From Methanoculleus sediminis (GTDB lineage: Archaea > Halobacteriota > Methanomicrobia > Methanomicrobiales > Methanoculleaceae), in NCBI RefSeq assembly GCF_001017125.1, contig NZ_JXOJ01000002.1, forward strand, positions 435,017 to 499,016: a stretch of 64,000 nt of DNA, in the 5' to 3' direction. The notes below the pieces were generated by a model. That model searched no databases. It was not told the origin of the DNA and saw only the letters and a program-made list of their open reading frames with translations. Positions 18,911 to 27,768 of the stretch are shown here, piece by piece. The position numbers and the translations under genes are program-made. Position 1 is the stretch's first letter. Every line of letters begins with the position of its first letter.

Positions 18911-20071
18911 TCACGACGTCGCGACCTCGACGCACTCTTTCCTCGTCCCGATCCGGGCGAGCGCCCCGCACATCCCGGGAACGTAGGCGAGGGCTTTGCC
19001 CGAGTCGACCATGATCGAAGCGAACTCGTCCATCCGGGGCGAGACGACCATGCAGGTGTCCGCGATCACCCGGGCGCCGCTCCGTTCGATGACGCTCACG
19101 AGGTCGGGGTTGTGCTTCGCGACCCCCTTTGCGGCAAAGATGTAGAAGGGTTTCGTCGTCGTCTTCCCCCGCAGGAGTTCCGCGAGTTCCCGGAGCTCGT
19201 CGGCGGAGCAGTGCGGGCACCCGACCGCGACTGCCTCGACCTCGGTCTCCGTAAAGAGGGCCTCGATCTCGTCCTGTGTTACCGTCACCCGGTCGAGGTC
19301 GCCGGTGTCGAACGTGAAAACCCGGGCTTCCGGGGTGATCTTCTCGACGTGGAAGAGGGCGACCGCCCCGGTCGCCGCCATCGCAGCCCCGAGGGCTTTG
19401 AGGTGATCGCGGTTCGGCCGGATACCCTCGAAGAGCGGGATCCGGTTCCCCACCTTCTTCCCGGCGACGTGGCCGATGGCGCCCCAGTGGCCGGCGTGCG
19501 GGCCGGTGCCGTTCTCGACCTCGACGACGACCTGCGGACGTCGGTTCTCGACGATGTGGAGACCGTAATAGGGGGTCTTTCCGATGATCGCCGCCGCAAG
19601 GGCGCTCGGCCCGCCTTCCCGGTTCGTCCGGGCACCGAGAACCGAGTTCGCGTAGGCGACCGCCGAAGACTCCGACCAGGCCAGGTGCTCCCCGTACTCC
19701 GTGATCCGCAGGTAATAGGGAGTGCAGGTGCACTCGACCCGGATCCCGAGCTTCCGGTAGGCCTCGACGACCTCCGCCTGGCGGCGGGCGAACTCCTCGT
19801 CGATCCCGAACTCCTGCCATCCCTCCCGCGGCATCCCGATGGGATTCAGAACCGCCGGGACCGCCGCCCGGGCGTTGAGGCTCTGCAGCCAGGCAAGCCC
19901 CCATCTTCCGATGGTCTTGTAGGACGCACCGCTCACCTGGGCGCTCGTGATCGGGACGAGTTTCTCCGCCCCGTAGACCTCCCCGAGCGCGACCAGGATC
20001 TCCATCATCTTCTGCCGGGTCTCGCCGAACTCGCCGGCGAGCACCCGCTCGTCATCGTTGTCTAGATACAT
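18911..20071 (-). CDS. Aconitase X large subunit; likely phosphomevalonate dehydratase
   Basis: The 386-residue protein belongs to the aconitase X catalytic family, which binds an iron-sulfur cluster. Telltale stretches are VPITSAQVSGASYKTIG, ECTCTPYY, GGPSALAAAIIGKTPYYG and VGCPHCSADEL. In archaea this family is known to dehydrate mevalonate 5-phosphate to trans-anhydromevalonate 5-phosphate. It directly abuts a UbiD-like decarboxylase gene, itself overlapping ubiX, which is exactly the pair needed for the next step, so the assignment is strong. The small subunit (DUF126 type) needed for activity is not in the window. Confidence 0.92.
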   Translation of the reverse strand: MYLDNDDERVLAGEFGETRQKMMEILVALGEVYGAEKLVPITSAQVSGASYKTIGRWGLAWLQSLNARAAVPAVLNPIGMPREGWQEFGIDEEFARRQAEVVEAYRKLGIRVECTCTPYYLRITEYGEHLAWSESSAVAYANSVLGARTNREGGPSALAAAIIGKTPYYGLHIVENRRPQVVVEVENGTGPHAGHWGAIGHVAGKKVGNRIPLFEGIRPNRDHLKALGAAMAATGAVALFHVEKITPEARVFTFDTGDLDRVTVTQDEIEALFTETEVEAVAVGCPHCSADELRELAELLRGKTTTKPFYIFAAKGVAKHNPDLVSVIERSGARVIADTCMVVSPRMDEFASIMVDSGKALAYVPGMCGALARIGTRKECVEVATS

Positions 20072-21313
20072 CTACACCCACTCCGCTCTCCTGAATTCGT
20101 CCTCTCTCCCCATGACCATCGTGGCATCGACACCGACCTTCACGTTCGTCCCGTCGGATAACCGTGTCGGGTCGAGCGACGAGCCACGGACGCCGGCGAC
20201 GATCATGATGTCGGTATCGCCCCGGACCCTCGTCGCGATAGCGTATTCGACGTCGTAAGGGTCGTGGAGATTGATATCCTCGTCCACCACCACGACGTGC
20301 TTGAGGGAGGTGTGGGCGGCAAACGCCGCCATGATGGCGTTCTTCGCGTCGCCCTGCGTATTTTTGCGGATCTTCACCACCGCGTGGAGGTAGCCGGCGC
20401 CGCCCTTCGTGAGGAGGACGTCACGCACCGTCGTCACCTCGCCCACTGCACGGTAGATCTTCGGCTCGTACGGCGCTCCCATCAGGAGTTTGTGCTCGTC
20501 GCCGGCCGGGAGGATGCCGTGGTAGATGGGGTCCTCCTTGCAGTACATCTTCGTGAACTCGATGACGTGCTGCTGGCGCACGGGGTCGTAGGTGCCGGTG
20601 ATGTCGACGAACGGCCCTTCAGCCGCCGTTTCAGCAGTGATGTAACCCTCGAGGACGAACTCGGCGTCGGGGACCCGGACGCCGTTCCCGCACTCCCGCA
20701 CGGCGAGTTCCCCGCCCATCAGTTCCGCGGCGTAGGCGAGCTCCTTACCCTCCGGGACGCGGGTGCAGGCGGCGAAGGTCACCAGCGGATGGGTGCCGAC
20801 GGTGACGGCGACCGGGAGTTTCTCCCCGCGGGCGAGCGCTGCTTTGAGGAGGGTATGGGTGTGCCTTCCTTCCACCAGGCGGGCGACGACCCTTCCGTCG
20901 TCGAGGACCATCATCCGGTGGATGGAGGCGTTCTCGACGCCGTCGTAGCGCGAGAAGACGATCCCGGAGGTGAGGTAGCGCCCGGCGTCGCCGGGGAAGT
21001 GCTTCATGACCGGGAGGGCGGAGAGGTCGGCAGGGATGCCACCTTCGAGCCGTCCGGCGTCCACGACGCGGCCGCTGTAGGTCATGCCCGCGAGGTGTCC
21101 GACGAGGTCCCGCTCCTCGACGCCGAGCGCCGCTGCAAGCGATCTCCGGTCGGAGAGGAGGTTCATCACCCCCCGGCGGCCGTCGAGGTCGTGGAAGAAG
21201 AGGATCTTATCCGTCCGGCTCGCCATACGGGGAGCCTCGTAGACGGTCGAGCAGGGGCTCTCGATCTCCTCGACCCTGCCCTGCTCCCGCATCAGTTCGA
21301 TAAAGTCACGCAT
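20072..21313 (-). CDS. UbiD-family decarboxylase; likely anhydromevalonate phosphate decarboxylase
   Basis: The 413-residue protein shows UbiD features: SIHRMMVLDDGRVVARLV, TVGTHPLVTFAACTRVPEGKELAYA, the catalytic Glu region ECGNGVRVPDAEFVLEGYI, EGPFVDITGTYD and VDEDINLHDPYDVEYAIATR. UbiD enzymes use prenylated FMN, and ubiX lies just upstream with an 8-bp overlap. In the archaeal mevalonate pathway a UbiD homolog decarboxylates trans-anhydromevalonate 5-phosphate to isopentenyl phosphate. Its stop codon is contiguous with the start of the dehydratase gene. A role in another decarboxylation is possible but the neighbourhood argues for the mevalonate role. Confidence 0.92.
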   Translation of the reverse strand: MRDFIELMREQGRVEEIESPCSTVYEAPRMASRTDKILFFHDLDGRRGVMNLLSDRRSLAAALGVEERDLVGHLAGMTYSGRVVDAGRLEGGIPADLSALPVMKHFPGDAGRYLTSGIVFSRYDGVENASIHRMMVLDDGRVVARLVEGRHTHTLLKAALARGEKLPVAVTVGTHPLVTFAACTRVPEGKELAYAAELMGGELAVRECGNGVRVPDAEFVLEGYITAETAAEGPFVDITGTYDPVRQQHVIEFTKMYCKEDPIYHGILPAGDEHKLLMGAPYEPKIYRAVGEVTTVRDVLLTKGGAGYLHAVVKIRKNTQGDAKNAIMAAFAAHTSLKHVVVVDEDINLHDPYDVEYAIATRVRGDTDIMIVAGVRGSSLDPTRLSDGTNVKVGVDATMVMGREDEFRRAEWV

Positions 21314-21860
21314 CGTATCCGCTCCATCGGGTTCCGAGGTCGTGTTCGACCCCCATGTGGTCGAGCACCCGGGCCACCACCATATCGACGAGGTCGTCGA
21401 TGGTCTGCGGGCGCTGGTAGAAGGGGGGGCTTGCGACCATCACGGTCGCGCCGGCATCGTCGGCCGCAAGCATATTCTTCAGGTGGATCCGGGAGAGCGG
21501 CATCTCCCGCAGCAGGAGGAGGAGGGGGCGCTTCTCCTTGAGGCAGACGTCCGCCGCCCGGGCGATCAGGTTGTCGGCGAACCCGTTGCTGACGGCGGCA
21601 AGCGTCTTCATGCTGCAGGGTACGATCGCCATCCCGTCGTAGCGGAACGAGCCGCTCGCGATATCGGCCGCAAGGTCGCTGTTCTCGGCGTATATGGCGC
21701 CGAACCCCTCGAGGTTCACGCCTTCGATCCCGGCGATCTGCCGGGCGGTATCGGAGATGACGATATGCACCGTTGCCCGTTCGCAGAGCACTTCGAGGAG
21801 GCGGCGGGCGTAGACGACCCCGCTTGCCCCGGTGACCCCGACGACGAATTCTTTCTTCAT
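21306..21860 (-). CDS. ubiX: UbiX flavin prenyltransferase
   Basis: The 184-residue protein begins with the Rossmann-like FMN-binding segment VVGVTGASGVVYARRLLEVL and has YDGMAIVPCSMKTLAAVSNGFADNLIA (shown here in part) and LLLLLREMPLSRIHLKNM, all typical of UbiX. It makes prenylated FMN from FMN and dimethylallyl phosphate, the cofactor of UbiD decarboxylases. The reading frame overlaps the start of the UbiD gene by 8 bp, so synthesis of enzyme and cofactor is coupled. Confidence 0.95.
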   Translation of the reverse strand: MKKEFVVGVTGASGVVYARRLLEVLCERATVHIVISDTARQIAGIEGVNLEGFGAIYAENSDLAADIASGSFRYDGMAIVPCSMKTLAAVSNGFADNLIARAADVCLKEKRPLLLLLREMPLSRIHLKNMLAADDAGATVMVASPPFYQRPQTIDDLVDMVVARVLDHMGVEHDLGTRWSGYDA

Positions 21861-21874
21861 GCGCTCTCCATATG

Positions 21875-23083
21875 TTATGTCACTACGAGTTTATCCTGTT
21901 TTGTCGCCCGCTTCACCCGGAGCACCTCCGTCGCCGCCTGCTCGACCGCGTTCCGGTGCTCCTCCACGGTGTAGACGCCGAGGCGCCACTGCTGCCGCCG
22001 GGTGTCGTTCAGGGTGTTGATGAGAGGGGAGACCTCCTCGATCTCGACCATCGCATGGCTGTTCCTGACCCGGACCTCCATCGAGAGCGCCCGGGGGAGC
22101 CGGGGGATGTCGACCAGGACGCAGTCCTCCGTGACCCCGGCGGTCTCGGCGATCTCGCGGGCGATCTCCCGCTCCCGGGCGGGGCCGGGTTCCTGGCGGA
22201 AGGCTGCGGCGTTCACCCGGTCTTCGCCGATGTACAGCGCCCGCTTGTAGAGGTCCCGGGCGTAGACCCGGCGGGCGAGGTCGCGGGTGATCGGGGAGGG
22301 GGAGTGCTTCAGCCGCTCCATGCAGGCGGCGTCGTCCATCCGCATCAGTTCGCGGGCGTCCGTGCCCGGGACGTTTCGCACCTCCTCGCGGAGGGCGTGG
22401 ACGAACATGCTCGTCGCGATCCGGCTCACGTGGTGGAAGTAGACCGCCGGGCGCATCAGCGTCCGGGCGATGAGGAGCGACTCGGCGGCGTTGATCCCGC
22501 CTTCGTGCAGGGCGATGCCCGACTCGGTGAAGATGGTGCTCCGGATCAGCCGGTGGGCGTCGACCGTCCCGTAGGGGACGCCGGTGTAGTGGGCGTCCCG
22601 CATCAGGTAGTCCATCCGGTCGACGTCCAGGCTGCCGTGGATGATGCTCGCGAGGCGGTGCTTCCCCGCGACGACGGCGCAGACCTCGGCGGGGTCGAGT
22701 CCTTCGCCTTCGAGGATACCCGCGGTCGTTCCCTCGCGGACGAGGCGGTCGATCTGGTGGTGGCTCCTCCCCGTGAACTCCTCCATCACCGGTTCGGTGA
22801 CGTGGGAGAAGGGGCCGTGGCCGATGTCGTGGAGGAGGGCGGCCGTGGTGACGAGTTTCGTCTCGCCGTCGTCGAGCCCGAGCTGGCCCGCCATGAGGGC
22901 CGCAAGATGCATCGTCCCGAGCGAGTGCTCGAACCGGGTATGGTTTGCCCCGGGGTAGACGAGGTTTGCAAACCCGAGCTGGGTGACGTGGCGGAGCCGC
23001 TGGACGACCTCCGAGTCGAGCAGCCGGAGCGCCGTCGCGTCCGCTTCGACGTAGCCGTGCACCGGATCTTTGATGATCTTCAT
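21875..23083 (-). CDS. HD-domain phosphohydrolase (dGTPase/SAMHD1-like)
   Basis: The 402-residue protein starts IKDPVHGYVE and has the metal-binding HD set: TRFEHSLGTMHLAALMAG, LLHDIGHGPFSH and, further on, SLDVDRMDYLMRDAHYTG. This arrangement is typical of the YdhJ/SAMHD1-like phosphohydrolases, whose substrates are often deoxynucleotides. It is the first gene of a same-strand set followed at 14 bp by ubiX, and may simply share a promoter with the mevalonate genes. The substrate is not predictable from sequence. Confidence 0.9.
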   Translation of the reverse strand: MKIIKDPVHGYVEADATALRLLDSEVVQRLRHVTQLGFANLVYPGANHTRFEHSLGTMHLAALMAGQLGLDDGETKLVTTAALLHDIGHGPFSHVTEPVMEEFTGRSHHQIDRLVREGTTAGILEGEGLDPAEVCAVVAGKHRLASIIHGSLDVDRMDYLMRDAHYTGVPYGTVDAHRLIRSTIFTESGIALHEGGINAAESLLIARTLMRPAVYFHHVSRIATSMFVHALREEVRNVPGTDARELMRMDDAACMERLKHSPSPITRDLARRVYARDLYKRALYIGEDRVNAAAFRQEPGPAREREIAREIAETAGVTEDCVLVDIPRLPRALSMEVRVRNSHAMVEIEEVSPLINTLNDTRRQQWRLGVYTVEEHRNAVEQAATEVLRVKRATKQDKLVVT

Positions 23084-23491
23084 CGGTTCTGTTAAGATTC
23101 TTGGGAGATGAAAGATAAAGGTATTTGAAGGCGCGCGGGGTGCGGGGGGGTTTTCTTTTGGGGGGAGCGGGGTGTGGGTGCGGGGGTGTAGGCATCAAAT
23201 GGCTGTCCGGGGTGCCCTGGTAGCAAAAGACCGGGCAGATCATTTTCTAGATAAAACGATTGTGCGCTACTCATCATCGCAAAGAACCAAGAGAGGCTCA
23301 ATGCTAAAGTTAAAGGCGAAGTGTCCAAAAAATCTCAATAATTTTTCCCCACTAATGCTACTTCTCAATTTCCTACCACAGTTAGACATAGACTGGCAGT
23401 TCTACAACGAAGCCTCTCCGTATACTTGATTGATTAGACATAAAGCGATTTTAGAAAAACTTTTATTCGAAATCTATGATCATATAGATCT
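23084..23491. other. Gene-free left edge of AT-rich island, with G-rich tract
   Basis: From about 23131 to 23192 the plus strand is dominated by G runs of four to seven interrupted by a TTTTCTTTT, a composition able to form a G-quadruplex. It is followed by an abrupt change to AT-rich DNA. The stretch 23262-23429 has an open frame ending LDIDWQFYNEASPYT that looks protein-like but has no recognisable family or clear start; it might be a remnant of a lost gene. A TTTTAT-like promoter element lies around 23456 before the TcmP-family gene. Confidence 0.5.
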
Positions 23492-24463
23492 ATGGATTAC
23501 GATAGAGATAAAGACGGGTATATATATGATCGAGTTAAGTGGCATACCCGGAAAAAGCACTTTTTTATCGAATCTTATCTTCAAATCTGGGTTGATAAAG
23601 TAAAAAGGAATCAGCCGACGTTAGATATTTTTGATCTATTTGCTGCCACAGGGTTATGCTATTGTGAAGATATTGCAGAGCCCAATTCACGGTGGGAAGG
23701 ATCGGCTTGTTTAGCTGCGAGATGTTTAGAGGGCTATCCCCGAGGAAGATATCTTTTCCTAAATACATATCATCCTGACGAGGAAATGTTTGCTGCACAA
23801 AAGGCTAACTTAACTCGTAAAATATCGGAAATCCGAAAAAGCAAACCTGGATATACAGAAATAGTTTCGAAGGAAATCGATCAGGCAGTTGAGGATGCAA
23901 TTGCATTTGCTGAGAGTAAGAATCTGCTACAATACCCCACCATCTGGGTACTCGATCCATGTGCAGCCTCAACCTTACCATGGTCTGTAGTCGAGCGAAT
24001 AGGAAAATTAAGACGCACATACTATTCTCCAAAAAGTGGTGAACGGGTCAGAAAACCGGAACTCATCATCAACTTGATGACATCCGATCTTCAGAGGAAT
24101 ATTAAGACCAATCCCCACGTGATAAGTATTGCATTAGGTCTTGATGAGGGGGTCTGGAGGCCGGAGATTGACGATCTAATGCAAACTAAGGGATATAACA
24201 CCCGAGAGGCATTGATTGAACTTTATGCCCGTAGGTTGTCGGAACTATATGACAAAGCGCCCATAATCTCTGAAATCAATACTACAAATGAGTCTGCAAT
24301 TGTGTATTGTCTCTTTTTATGTACCGATAACAATGCAGGTCATTATATGGGGAAACTTCAGGGTTTGAAGGATTACAATACGCGACTATATGATTGGAGA
24401 CATGAAGCGCGAAGGGTGGTAGCGGAGAAAAAACTACCTCCTGATCAAACAAAGCTGTTTTAA
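23492..24463 (+). CDS. tcmP: Three-Cys-motif partner (TcmP) family protein
   Basis: The 323-residue protein resembles the TcmP family: an N-terminal KWHTRKKHFFIESYLQIWVD segment, then IFDLFAATGLCYCED, similar to a class I methyltransferase motif I, and LDPCAASTLPWSVV. TcmP genes are known for pairing with a protein carrying a three-cysteine radical SAM-like motif, and the gene ending here tail-to-tail (4-bp overlap) has exactly such a motif. Base composition is visibly AT-richer than the surroundings, with codons such as ATA, TTA and AGA, suggesting horizontal transfer. Its reaction is unknown; a methyltransferase-like fold is inference. Confidence 0.75.
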   Translation: MDYDRDKDGYIYDRVKWHTRKKHFFIESYLQIWVDKVKRNQPTLDIFDLFAATGLCYCEDIAEPNSRWEGSACLAARCLEGYPRGRYLFLNTYHPDEEMFAAQKANLTRKISEIRKSKPGYTEIVSKEIDQAVEDAIAFAESKNLLQYPTIWVLDPCAASTLPWSVVERIGKLRRTYYSPKSGERVRKPELIINLMTSDLQRNIKTNPHVISIALGLDEGVWRPEIDDLMQTKGYNTREALIELYARRLSELYDKAPIISEINTTNESAIVYCLFLCTDNNAGHYMGKLQGLKDYNTRLYDWRHEARRVVAEKKLPPDQTKLF

Positions 24464-25191
24464 TATTTCTTCAAATCATCTTTTATATAGTATTTAGAGT
24501 TATACTCGTTCAGTTTGCGAATGACTCCGGCTTTAAATGCCTTCCAATCGACCTTGTGTTGCTGTTTGTTGTAATTCAGTTTTCCAACTTTGAAGAGGTC
24601 TACAAACTCATGGGTCAAGTCGATAAGTTGTAACGTCTGTTCAGGGAACCATACTGGCTCTAATGATACATAGGTGAAGATGCCGAGGCCGTAGGCTTTC
24701 TTCAGCGATTCTATCCTTTCCACCGTCGGAGCTGCCCTGGGTTCGATTTTTTCTCTCCACGCTTCATCGGTAAACACCAGGGTCGTGCCATACTCGCTCA
24801 GCTCCGGATGTTCCGATAGCAGATCAAAATCTCGCTCAGACCTCCTGCCGCCTTTCGTCAAGATGGATACTTTGAGCTTATTCTGATGCAGAATTTTGAT
24901 TGCCTTCCGTGTAAGTTGCGTCTCCACATCGAGGGGCTGATACGGATCGGTTGTGAAGGATAGCAGTATCGGACGTGTCTCTCCTTTATCCCGCAGTTCG
25001 ATTGCATCTTTTTCGAACTTGTACATCACACCATCCCGAACCCGGGGCTGGCAAAAATCATCTCTACTCGTTCGGATTGCAAGGGGAGCGTAACAGTACG
25101 TACAGCCGTGACCACATCCACGGTACAAGTTCGCCGCTAACTCACAGTATTCTCGGGCTCTACCTTTCGTCTCATATATGATCGTGGTCAC
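24460..25191 (-). CDS. SPL-like radical SAM protein, presumed TcmP partner
   Basis: The 243-residue protein contains the radical SAM motif CGHGCTYCYAP (Cys-x3-Cys-x2-Cys, residues about 26-36), a further FCQPRVR cysteine, and LLSFTTDPYQPLD and VSILTKGG, as in the COG1533/spore photoproduct lyase-like group. Such enzymes cleave S-adenosylmethionine to start radical chemistry, often on nucleic acids or proteins. It begins with GTG overlapping the stop of the AbrB-like gene (GTGA), with a strong GGAGGGAGG site before it. Its end overlaps that of the TcmP gene. Composition is AT-rich, as for the rest of the island. Confidence 0.85.
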   Translation of the reverse strand: MTTIIYETKGRAREYCELAANLYRGCGHGCTYCYAPLAIRTSRDDFCQPRVRDGVMYKFEKDAIELRDKGETRPILLSFTTDPYQPLDVETQLTRKAIKILHQNKLKVSILTKGGRRSERDFDLLSEHPELSEYGTTLVFTDEAWREKIEPRAAPTVERIESLKKAYGLGIFTYVSLEPVWFPEQTLQLIDLTHEFVDLFKVGKLNYNKQQHKVDWKAFKAGVIRKLNEYNSKYYIKDDLKKY

Positions 25192-25376
25192 TTTCCTCCC
25201 TCCTGTTTGATTATTTCAATAACAAGCCGATCTCTATTGATACTCCATCTCAGGCGGTCTCCTTTTTCCAATTCGAATTGGTCTTTGATGAAGGCAGGTA
25301 TGGTTGCCCTTAAGGAGTTGCTATTCGAAGCCGCCACGGTGATAGTTGTTTCATTCGCCCGGGGATTTCTTGCCAT
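25188..25376 (-). CDS. AbrB/MazE-type DNA-binding protein
   Basis: The 62-residue protein contains a SpoVT-AbrB swapped-hairpin domain: SLRATIPAFIKDQFELEKGD and RLRWSINRDRLVIEI. These proteins are small dimeric DNA binders, often antitoxins or autoregulators. The gene is translationally coupled to the radical SAM gene (GTGA overlap) and has a perfect 7-bp inverted repeat just upstream, a probable operator. It may regulate the island or be the antitoxin-like part of the system. Confidence 0.85.
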   Translation of the reverse strand: MARNPRANETTITVAASNSNSLRATIPAFIKDQFELEKGDRLRWSINRDRLVIEIIKQEGGK

Positions 25377-25383
25377 GCTGCTA

Positions 25384-25404
25384 CAGAGTTACTATGCAAC
25401 TCTG
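25384..25404. promoter_or_regulatory. Inverted repeat operator before the AbrB-like gene
   Basis: CAGAGTT and AACTCTG form a perfect 7-bp inverted repeat with a 7-bp spacer, ending 8 bp before the AbrB start codon. An AT-rich TATA-like stretch lies directly upstream on the minus strand (about 25405-25415), so a protein bound here would overlap the transcription start. Autoregulation by the AbrB-like protein is the obvious guess. Confidence 0.6.
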
Positions 25405-25652
25405 ATATTAAAATTAATTGTCTATTAAATTACAATACTAATTGCCCCTATAATTGTCATAATAATTACCTATAGAGTTATGAGAAAAGGTATGCATCGG
25501 TGCCTTCTGCCGGGTCGAGGGCTTCTGGTAACACGCTAGGAACCCGGAGAGCGAGATCAACACTCAACCTCCGCCCCACCCCCACCTCCCTCCCCACCAC
25601 ACCAACTGAAACCGTTAACCCCCCTGACACCCCACATAAATGACATTCAGCC
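25405..25652. other. Right edge of AT-rich island, with C-rich tract
   Basis: The AT-rich stretch ends near 25480. About 25567-25633 of the plus strand is a C-rich tract with runs of three to six C, the complementary composition to the G-rich tract at the left edge of the island. A CATAAATG element near 25634 may be the TATA box for the first cofD gene. No gene is recognised here. Confidence 0.5.
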
Positions 25653-26555
25653 ATGATCACCTTCCTCTCCGGCGGAGCCGGGACGCCTGCGCTCGTCCGG
25701 GGCGTCCGGCAGATCCTCTACGACAGCGAGATCGCCGTGGTCGCGAATACCGCCGAGGATCTCCGGGTATCGGGGGGCCACTGTGCGCCCGACATCGACA
25801 CCGCCGTCTTCCTCTTTGCCGGCATCCTCGACACCGGCCGGTGGTGGGGGATCAAGGGCGACACTTACGCCACCCATAACTACCTCCCGAAGGTGGCGGG
25901 CGGCGAGCCCTTCCCGGTCGGCGACCGTGCCCGGGCGGTCCAGATCGCCCGGGCGGCGCTGCTCCGGGAGGGAAAAACCCTGACCGAGGCGGTCCGGGCG
26001 CAGTGCCGGTCGCTCAACATCGGGGCGACCGTCCTCCCGATGACCGACGGCGACGCCGCCCTCTTCGTCGATACCGGCACCGGACGCCTCCCGCTCCTCG
26101 AGTACCGGATGGCCGCCGATCCCGGGACGGAGGTCCGGGAACTCGTCGGGCCAGAACCCCCGGCGGTCACGGACGAGGTGCGGGCGGCGATCGAGGAAAG
26201 CGACGCCGTGGTGATCGGGCCCGCCAACCCGGCGGCGAGCATCCTCCCCATCCTCGACTGCGCCGGGATGCGGGACCTCCTCCTTGAGAAATTCGTCGTC
26301 GCGGTCTCGCCGTTTTCGGGCGGCGTCGCGCCGGACTCGAAAGACGCCGCCCTCATGTACGCCGTCGGCGAAACCCCCACGTCACCGGCGGTCTCCCGGC
26401 TGTACGGGGATATCGTCGACGTCTTCGTCCAGGACATCCACGACCCCGACGACGTCCCCGGCTCGCTCCGCCTCGAGACGCGCCTGATGCACGATCGGCA
26501 GGCCGAATCGCTCGCGTGGGACATCATGGCGGTCATCCGCCACGCCGTTTCGTGA
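25653..26555 (+). CDS. CofD-family protein (divergent paralog of 2-phospho-L-lactate transferase)
   Basis: The 300-residue protein begins [20 protein letters not shown] and keeps the general CofD layout ([64 protein letters not shown]). CofD attaches a lactyl phosphate-type group to Fo in F420 synthesis. Compared with its neighbour, the SGN-x3-SPD segment has become SGGHCAPD and the NAPVSGPA-type segment near residue 225 has become SGGVAPDSKDA. It may therefore accept another substrate or act as a non-standard paralog. It follows the AT-rich island and is probably transcribed separately from the second copy. Confidence 0.85.
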   Translation: MITFLSGGAGTPALVRGVRQILYDSEIAVVANTAEDLRVSGGHCAPDIDTAVFLFAGILDTGRWWGIKGDTYATHNYLPKVAGGEPFPVGDRARAVQIARAALLREGKTLTEAVRAQCRSLNIGATVLPMTDGDAALFVDTGTGRLPLLEYRMAADPGTEVRELVGPEPPAVTDEVRAAIEESDAVVIGPANPAASILPILDCAGMRDLLLEKFVVAVSPFSGGVAPDSKDAALMYAVGETPTSPAVSRLYGDIVDVFVQDIHDPDDVPGSLRLETRLMHDRQAESLAWDIMAVIRHAVS

Positions 26556-26865: not shown

Positions 26866-27768
26866 ATGATAACCTTCCTCTCGGGCGGGACCGGAACCCC
26901 GAAACTCCTCCGCGGGGTGCGGGAACTGCTGGACGAGCGGGACATCGCGGTCGTCGTCAACACGGCCGAGGACACCTGGCTCTCCGGCAACCACCTCTCG
27001 CCCGACATCGACACGGTCATGTACCTCTTTGCGGGCATCCTCGACACCAACCGGTGGTGGGGGATCAAGAACGACTCCTACATCACCCACGACCTCCTCG
27101 CACGGCTCGGCATAGACGAGTACATCGCCGTCGGCGACCAGGACCGGGCGGTTCACGCAGCACGGGGAGAGATGCTCCGGAGCGGCAAGCGGCTGACGGA
27201 GATCACCAGGGCGCTCTGCCGCACGCTGGACGTCCGGGCGACCGTTCTCCCGATGACCGACTCCGTCGTGACGACCTACGTCCGGACGCTCCGGGGCGAG
27301 ATACACTTCCAGGAGTACTGGGTGAAGCACCGGGGCGACGTCGCGATCGACGGCGTCGTCCGGAAGTTCGATGAGCCGCCGGCCGCGAGCGACGAAGTCA
27401 TCGAGGCGATCGAGGAAAGCGACGCCGTGGTGATCGGGCCGAGCAACCCGGTCACGAGCATATCCCCGATCCTCGAGTGCGACGGGGTGCGGGAGGTGCT
27501 CCGCCGGCAGCACGTCATCGCGGTCAGCCCCTTCATCGGCGATGCCCCGGTCAGCGGCCCGGCGGCGGCGCTGATGCGGGCGTTCGGAAAAGAGCCCTCG
27601 TCCGCCGGAACCTACGGTCTCTACGAGGACTTCGTGGACGTCTTCATCCAGGACATCCGCGACCCGGTCGAACTCGAAGGGGCGCTGCGCCAGGACACCC
27701 TCATGGTCAACCGGGGCAAGAGTCTCGACCTCGCGAAGAGCATCCTGACCCTGATCTACGGGTGCTGA
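26866..27768 (+). CDS. cofD: 2-phospho-L-lactate transferase, canonical copy
   Basis: The 300-residue protein transfers the phospholactyl-type group from its GDP/GTP-activated donor to Fo, making F420-0. It keeps the full family signature: [81 protein letters not shown] and [17 protein letters not shown]. It is probably the functional F420 enzyme, fitting the F420 hydrogenase elsewhere in the window. A TTCATATACG promoter element about 35 bp upstream gives it its own promoter, apart from the divergent copy. Confidence 0.95.

Follow-up and report, generated by a model that had tools for sequence, protein, structure and literature searches.

What do a TcmP-family protein and a radical S-adenosylmethionine (SAM) protein accomplish together, and why do their genes lie side by side in a small AT-rich island of the archaeon Methanoculleus sediminis? 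Both genes are found in a stretch of 64,000 nucleotides (contig NZ_JXOJ01000002.1, positions 435,017 to 499,016), hereafter the window, where the TcmP gene (23492-24463, + strand, ATG start) encodes 323 aa and the radical SAM gene (24460-25191, − strand, GTG start) encodes 243 aa. TcmP is a named family for which we found no biochemistry in the literature searched, and its catalogued partner is DUF5131. An earlier note, made from the sequence alone, had listed nucleic-acid modification, toxin-antitoxin activity and RNA repair as possible roles; our results favored modification, spoke against the toxin-antitoxin form and gave RNA repair no specific support. We hold, with roughly even confidence, that the pair is a horizontally exchanged two-enzyme module for nucleic-acid modification, likely linked to defence. 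A vague defence candidate thus becomes a specific prediction: that a methyltransferase-like protein and a radical enzyme together produce a new base modification.

TcmP and radical SAM genes are linked in the Halobacteriota

The window TcmP passed the TIGR04474 (three-Cys-motif partner) model with 82.8 bits (cut-off 53) and represents a short form of ~320 aa; the longer TcmPs (365-395 aa) have a C-terminal extension that it lacks. Close TcmP forms occur in four of the 120 genomes of the order, with a radical SAM gene adjoining in all four. At the level of the phylum Halobacteriota, TIGR04474 was present in 32 of 345 genomes, and 29 of the 30 loci that were fetched had a radical SAM or DUF5131 gene alongside, defined as an open reading frame (ORF) with the radical SAM or DUF5131 cysteine motif no more than 1.5 kb from TcmP; by the identical rule, such a frame was found in 6 of 400 random 3.75 kb segments. 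In the sole exception, L091, the contig ends within the flank. Linkage of the two genes is genuine and general in Halobacteriota, in line with the pairing that the earlier note had described, and the lack of co-occurrence elsewhere that it had named as grounds for abandoning the idea is not what these loci display.

The partners are of several kinds: the type found in the window, spore photoproduct lyase (SPL) family proteins (PF20903, 'CPFNCAWCY'), longer proteins with 'C[TSR]HGCKFCY', DUF5131 proteins and proteins with a CX3CX3C motif. The pairing itself is already catalogued as a candidate (TcmP with DUF5131) and the exact partner here differs; in archaea TcmP is usually paired with true radical SAM proteins, and these are of several kinds. 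Twelve pairs lie on the same strand, ten are convergent and two divergent, and several overlap by a few bases. In one locus (L083, genome G352, 325-2262) the two are naturally fused into a single protein of 645 aa, in which a TcmP is joined to a radical SAM domain with the unusual CX3CX3C motif. The link survives every gene order as well as fusion, and these varied arrangements point to two proteins that work together rather than to mere promoter sharing. The reverse view was congruent: every cellular gene that matched the close radical SAM profile strongly adjoins a gene for TcmP or for a diverged TcmP-like protein, while the weaker matches (200-280 bits) have no adjoining TcmP.

Kinship among the TcmPs does not follow the species, since the protein of a congener (G010) is 42% identical to that of the window and the one of a genome from another family (G021) 58%, which indicates horizontal spread. 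A plasmid case, annotated tcmP in Halocatena, was reached through the radical SAM query; the window TcmP as query gave no match in plasmids or in viral contigs.

The radical SAM protein has the fold of spore photoproduct lyase and probably not its chemistry

The radical SAM protein passed PF04055 with 44.1 bits (cut-off 29.5), and its structure model, built on 17 sequences, is of high confidence (predicted local distance difference test, pLDDT, 94.8). Its profile gave only chance matches to PDB sequences; by structure, the best PDB matches were spore photoproduct lyases, which took ranks 1-3 with template modelling (TM) scores of 0.74-0.75 and a best E of 2.7e-8. The cluster motif CX3CX2C (C26-GHG-C30-TY-C33; 25093-25116, − strand) is intact, and Y32 and Y34 are invariant in the alignment of the 17 sequences (A4). 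In SPL the equivalent tyrosines, Y97 and Y99 in Bacillus subtilis numbering, flank the last cluster cysteine and act in catalysis, and C141 returns the hydrogen atom (PMC3742179). The Geobacillus enzyme has this cysteine as C140, directly before T-S-D; the residue reads A in the matched chain 4rh0, where, as follows from the series to which the entry belongs, it is the C140A mutation. The window protein has 'S-F79-T-T-D' in the matching stretch, a correspondence drawn from the T-x-D anchor rather than from superposed coordinates. F79 is invariant and C26, C30 and C33 are the only invariant cysteines, with no fourth among the 17 sequences. The SPL-family partners of other TcmPs likewise carry no cysteine at the C140 position.

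With a conserved phenylalanine in place of the quenching cysteine, the substrate radical would be expected to reach a new product instead of being restored. The nearest solved relative is a lyase whose chemistry has probably been lost here, and we expect radical chemistry without the restoring step of the lyase. In addition, the window protein is shorter than SPL and has no PF20903 match. A strict SPL function was rejected for want of the hydrogen-donor cysteine.

These residues also bear on a DNA-repair unit, in which the radical SAM protein would reverse a photoproduct or another lesion as SPL does and TcmP would serve as a helper. Such a unit could claim the best solved match and both retained catalytic tyrosines; however, the essential hydrogen donor is missing in the window protein, where no other invariant cysteine could replace it, as well as in the SPL-family partners of other TcmPs, and a patchy presence in a hotspot together with a fixed methyltransferase-like partner does not suit a housekeeping repair gene. 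We regard repair as improbable.

Another possibility is an antiviral pair of the viperin kind, whose modified nucleotide would poison viral polymerases. Viperins appeared among the structural matches (ranks 10, 17 and 18) and the radical SAM protein is found near defence genes, but SPL matches far better (E 2.7e-8 vs 1.7e-5), no nucleotide kinase was seen alongside, pairing with a methyltransferase-like protein is no feature of viperins, and the nearest sequence families are PA0069, radical SAM mobile pair B and Rv2578c. We consider this explanation quite unlikely. The relationship to the mobile pair (TIGR04470/TIGR04471) is itself distant: the window protein reaches 50 bits against protein B, far under the equivalog cut-off of 410 bits, and its partner is TcmP rather than a second radical SAM protein. 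Membership in DUF5131 (PF07505) was also rejected (17.8 vs a cut-off of 28.9 bits).

TcmP resembles methyltransferases and may act with its partner on a base

The TcmP model (pLDDT 76, predicted TM score 0.80) displays alternating beta strands and alpha helices followed by a terminal beta hairpin, as in class I methyltransferases. Motif I, DLFAATG (23633-23653, + strand), has D48, A51 and G54 invariant in alignments A1 and A3, and a motif IV-like D155-P156 within LDP[FYC] (23954-23959, + strand) is invariant in alignments A1, A3 and A9. The protein thus looks weakly like a Rossmann methyltransferase whose nearest structural relative is RlmJ, the 23S rRNA adenine methyltransferase, with which it shares motif I and the D-P of motif IV. 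Searches against PDB sequences with TcmP, as with the radical SAM profile, gave only chance matches, among which we count a short and partial one to an endoglucanase (5e-4).

According to the mechanism that we propose, TcmP and the radical SAM enzyme would form a complex that acts on a base of a nucleic acid. TcmP would bind the substrate and either methylate an exocyclic amine or position it; its partner would generate a 5'-deoxyadenosyl radical and functionalise a C-H bond of the same base. The modification would most likely mark DNA or RNA in conflict with viruses. If true, this would be new chemistry in the conflict between host and virus, and it may account for uncharacterised radical SAM genes of phage genomes.

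Viral relatives lie near packaging and DNA-modification genes

Ten IMG/VR contigs encode relatives of the radical SAM protein with 42-55% identity, and the corresponding PHROGs family, phrog_13321, is listed as unknown. In at least four viral contigs (L065, L067, L069 and L073) a protein of ~200 aa is encoded close to the radical SAM gene, and in Dulem virus 36 ParB, a protein of 190 aa and the radical SAM gene are consecutive. As read from the sequence, the ~200 aa proteins contain a motif I-like stretch and a 'D-x-D-x-[YWF]-[GS]-S-P'-like stretch, ParB-like and terminase genes lie near several of the viral relatives, a relative in another archaeal genome (G021, contig C2) follows a C5-DNA-methyltransferase-like gene, and a frame of 1077 aa in G381 (L120, 2766-5999) joins a primase/helicase-like protein to an SPL-like radical SAM domain. 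The contig that carries this last frame is a probable provirus.

The viral genes are likely counterparts of the archaeal pairs and, together with the SPL-like partner that has lost its cysteine, the swapping and fusion of partners and the hotspot described below, they are what our analysis adds to the catalogued pairing. A bolder and doubtful proposal is that TcmP-radical SAM pairs and viral pairs of a mini-methyltransferase and a radical SAM protein would together form a single, so far unrecognised class of two-enzyme systems for radical base modification, with which cells would mark or attack nucleic acid and viruses would hypermodify their own DNA before packaging. The radical partner would be interchangeable (SPL-like, DUF5131, CX3CX3C and others) and the methyltransferase-like partner constant.

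The viral neighbourhoods also speak to a different target, that is, a pair that modifies the ribosome or tRNA and shields host translation from toxins or inhibitors, following a logic like that of rRNA m6A or of Cfr. TcmP's nearest fold belongs to an rRNA methyltransferase, and rRNA is a known substrate of radical SAM enzymes such as Cfr (PMC3702613). Nevertheless, the viral relatives sit among DNA packaging and DNA-modification genes, no translation gene was seen consistently linked, and the match to RlmJ is weak, and so we judge protection of translation to be unlikely.

The island occupies a variable hotspot

The island lies between an HD-domain phosphohydrolase-like gene (21875-23083, − strand), which is kept beside cofD in the congeners, and a cofD-like gene (25653-26555, + strand), which is present in 34 of the 35 congeners. 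Similarity to relatives in blastn ended at ~23191 on the left and restarted at 25535-25608 on the right, outlining an AT-rich insert of ~2.3 kb whose unique part spans approximately 23192-25534. Its GC content is 0.39-0.49, vs 0.62-0.72 outside, and GC at third codon positions is 0.37, 0.53 and 0.48 in TcmP, the radical SAM gene and the third, AbrB-like gene, respectively, vs 0.87-0.92 in the neighbours. Among the ORFs and repeats examined in the island there were no terminal repeats and neither an integrase nor a transposase. The description given in the earlier note, of an abrupt AT-rich island with three tightly packed genes, was therefore accurate, and both overlaps that it reported are in the sequence: the 4 bp tail-to-tail overlap of the TcmP and radical SAM stop codons (TTAA, 24460-24463), which recurs at loci in other genera, and GTGA at 25188-25191, where the start of the radical SAM gene shares bases with the stop of the AbrB-like gene.

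In eight congeners the HD and cofD genes are only 45-47 bp apart. This empty junction in syntenic Methanoculleus genomes agrees with the compact mobile or accessory character that had been claimed, as a horizontally acquired island at a variable site; the genes are not fixed in all close relatives, nor do they have the GC and codon use of the chromosome. Fourteen other congeners carry inserts of 1.4-7.1 kb at the junction, all unlike that of the window, which sort by DNA similarity into seven further groups. The HD-cofD junction is a variable hotspot. Among the genes that it holds in the congeners are those for Mrr-type restriction proteins, for SocA/Panacea and DUF4041/T5orf172 proteins, and for an N6/N4 DNA methyltransferase, which has an unassigned neighbour. 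One insert of 6.26 kb, which carries an Mrr-type protein, a DNA methyltransferase and Panacea, is 99.7% identical in two species (L040 in G058 and L046 in G080) whose flanking genes are 88.8% identical. It is a very recent transfer, and the contrast between the two values indicates that inserts are exchanged between species, perhaps via recombination in the flanking genes. The TcmP-radical SAM pair would then be one accessory module among those passed horizontally through this hotspot.

Other inserts of the hotspot have contents of their own. Three species (L036, L037 and L043) share a 1.4 kb insert that is ~99% identical and has no long ORF; it may be the remnant of a decayed element, or else an RNA gene. 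The insert of G108 (L044) consists of two overlapping genes, with ORFs of 348 and 317 aa and without a Pfam match, which make a candidate unknown pair, and that of G040 (L039) contains an ORF of 1068 aa for an NTPase-like protein with TPR-like repeats that, by eye, looks like the STAND type. In a genome from another family of the order (G045; L055, 7847-14600), a TcmP-radical SAM pair flanks the same conserved ubiD/ubiX/HD/cofD cluster on its opposite side, no more than about 5 kb from where the island of the window is inserted.

Defence genes accompany some of the pairs

A defence role, which the earlier note had offered, is suggested by what the hotspot carries, by the defence genes that lie close to several of the other pairs and by the listing of candidates in PADLOC, though not in its toxin-antitoxin form. 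The PADLOC models PDC-M30A and PDC-M41A match TcmP proteins and PDC-M30B and PDC-M41B match DUF5131 proteins; these PDC systems are unpublished candidates (PMC11811056). Like them, the window has a TcmP-family protein adjoining a three-cysteine radical SAM-like protein, and such pairs are sometimes near defence genes. The partner, in contrast, is a canonical CX3CX2C SPL-like radical SAM protein below the DUF5131 cut-off. The window TcmP matched PDC-M41A weakly (24.2 bits, E 6e-6), and the radical SAM protein did not reach a match with PDC-M30B, the DUF5131 component (13.5 bits, E 0.0095).

Genes matched by PADLOC near TcmP pairs belong to type I restriction-modification (R-M; G377), HsdR with an OLD-like protein (G346), type IIG (G216), Wadjet (G010) and a GajB-like helicase (G321). 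DUF262-like and RloB-like genes, recognised from their sequence alone, lie near two more pairs. The pooled neighbours of the pairs matched 232 PADLOC models vs 35 in control regions of similar gene number, where the matches were mostly generic ATPases and helicases, a contrast that is overstated because one R-M gene matches many models. A bacterial TcmP, SMa2243 of Sinorhizobium meliloti, appears in an expression table beside hna, a gene of proven phage defence (PMC12445080).

Several points weigh against a base-modifying pair with a part in defence. Defence neighbours were confirmed at 5 of the 23 TcmP-pair loci, the PADLOC control was based on pooled genes rather than on a count for each locus, and the island holds no other defence gene. 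On the enzymatic side, the TcmP model was built on only six sequences, its best PDB structure match, RlmJ, is weak (E 3e-3, TM 0.46/0.53), and its motif IV is DP[FYC] instead of the usual [DN]PP[FYW], which leaves methylation itself uncertain; the placing of F79 opposite C140 depends on the anchor mentioned above. The viral mini proteins have a weak link to canonical TcmP (hhalign, 64%, E 6.6e-5) and gave no signal with the close TcmP group (hhalign, about 1%). Finally, in the literature searched we found no tested activity for any TcmP, and no tested function for DUF5131 or for the TcmP-radical SAM pairing.

The AbrB-like gene is a local addition

The third gene of the island (25188-25376, − strand, ATG start) encodes an AbrB/MazE-like small regulator of 62 aa that scored 23.0 bits against MazE_antitoxin, just below the cut-off of 24.7. 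The earlier note had made it a part of the unit. Instead, it was found in one of the 35 congeners, the genome of the window itself, and an AbrB-like ORF upstream of the radical SAM gene was absent in nine other loci; we thus rejected it as a core component.

The same absence decides against a toxin-antitoxin unit with AbrB/MazE as the antitoxin, which the earlier note had also considered. The overlap of the AbrB-like gene with the radical SAM start and the palindrome described below, which could serve as an AbrB operator, would fit such a unit; on the other hand, the gene is missing from the sister loci, and family searches placed neither TcmP nor the radical SAM protein in a known toxin family. 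We regard it as very improbable. The palindrome, AGAGTT-N7-AACTCT (25385-25403, + strand), lies just upstream of the gene as its only match in the window, with none expected in shuffled sequence, and a further half-site, AGAGTTAT, is located at 25474-25481. This candidate operator suggests local autoregulation, and beside the proposed two-enzyme modification module AbrB would be a local autoregulator.

Neighbouring genes

To the right of the island, a second cofD-like paralogue (26866-27768, + strand) stands in tandem with the one at 25653-26555, the two being ~52% identical to each other, and this tandem is retained in nearly all congeners. To the left, three consecutive genes (18911-21860, − strand) resemble AcnX (aconitase X), a UbiD-like decarboxylase and UbiX, a row that we take to be the archaeal mevalonate-pathway set.

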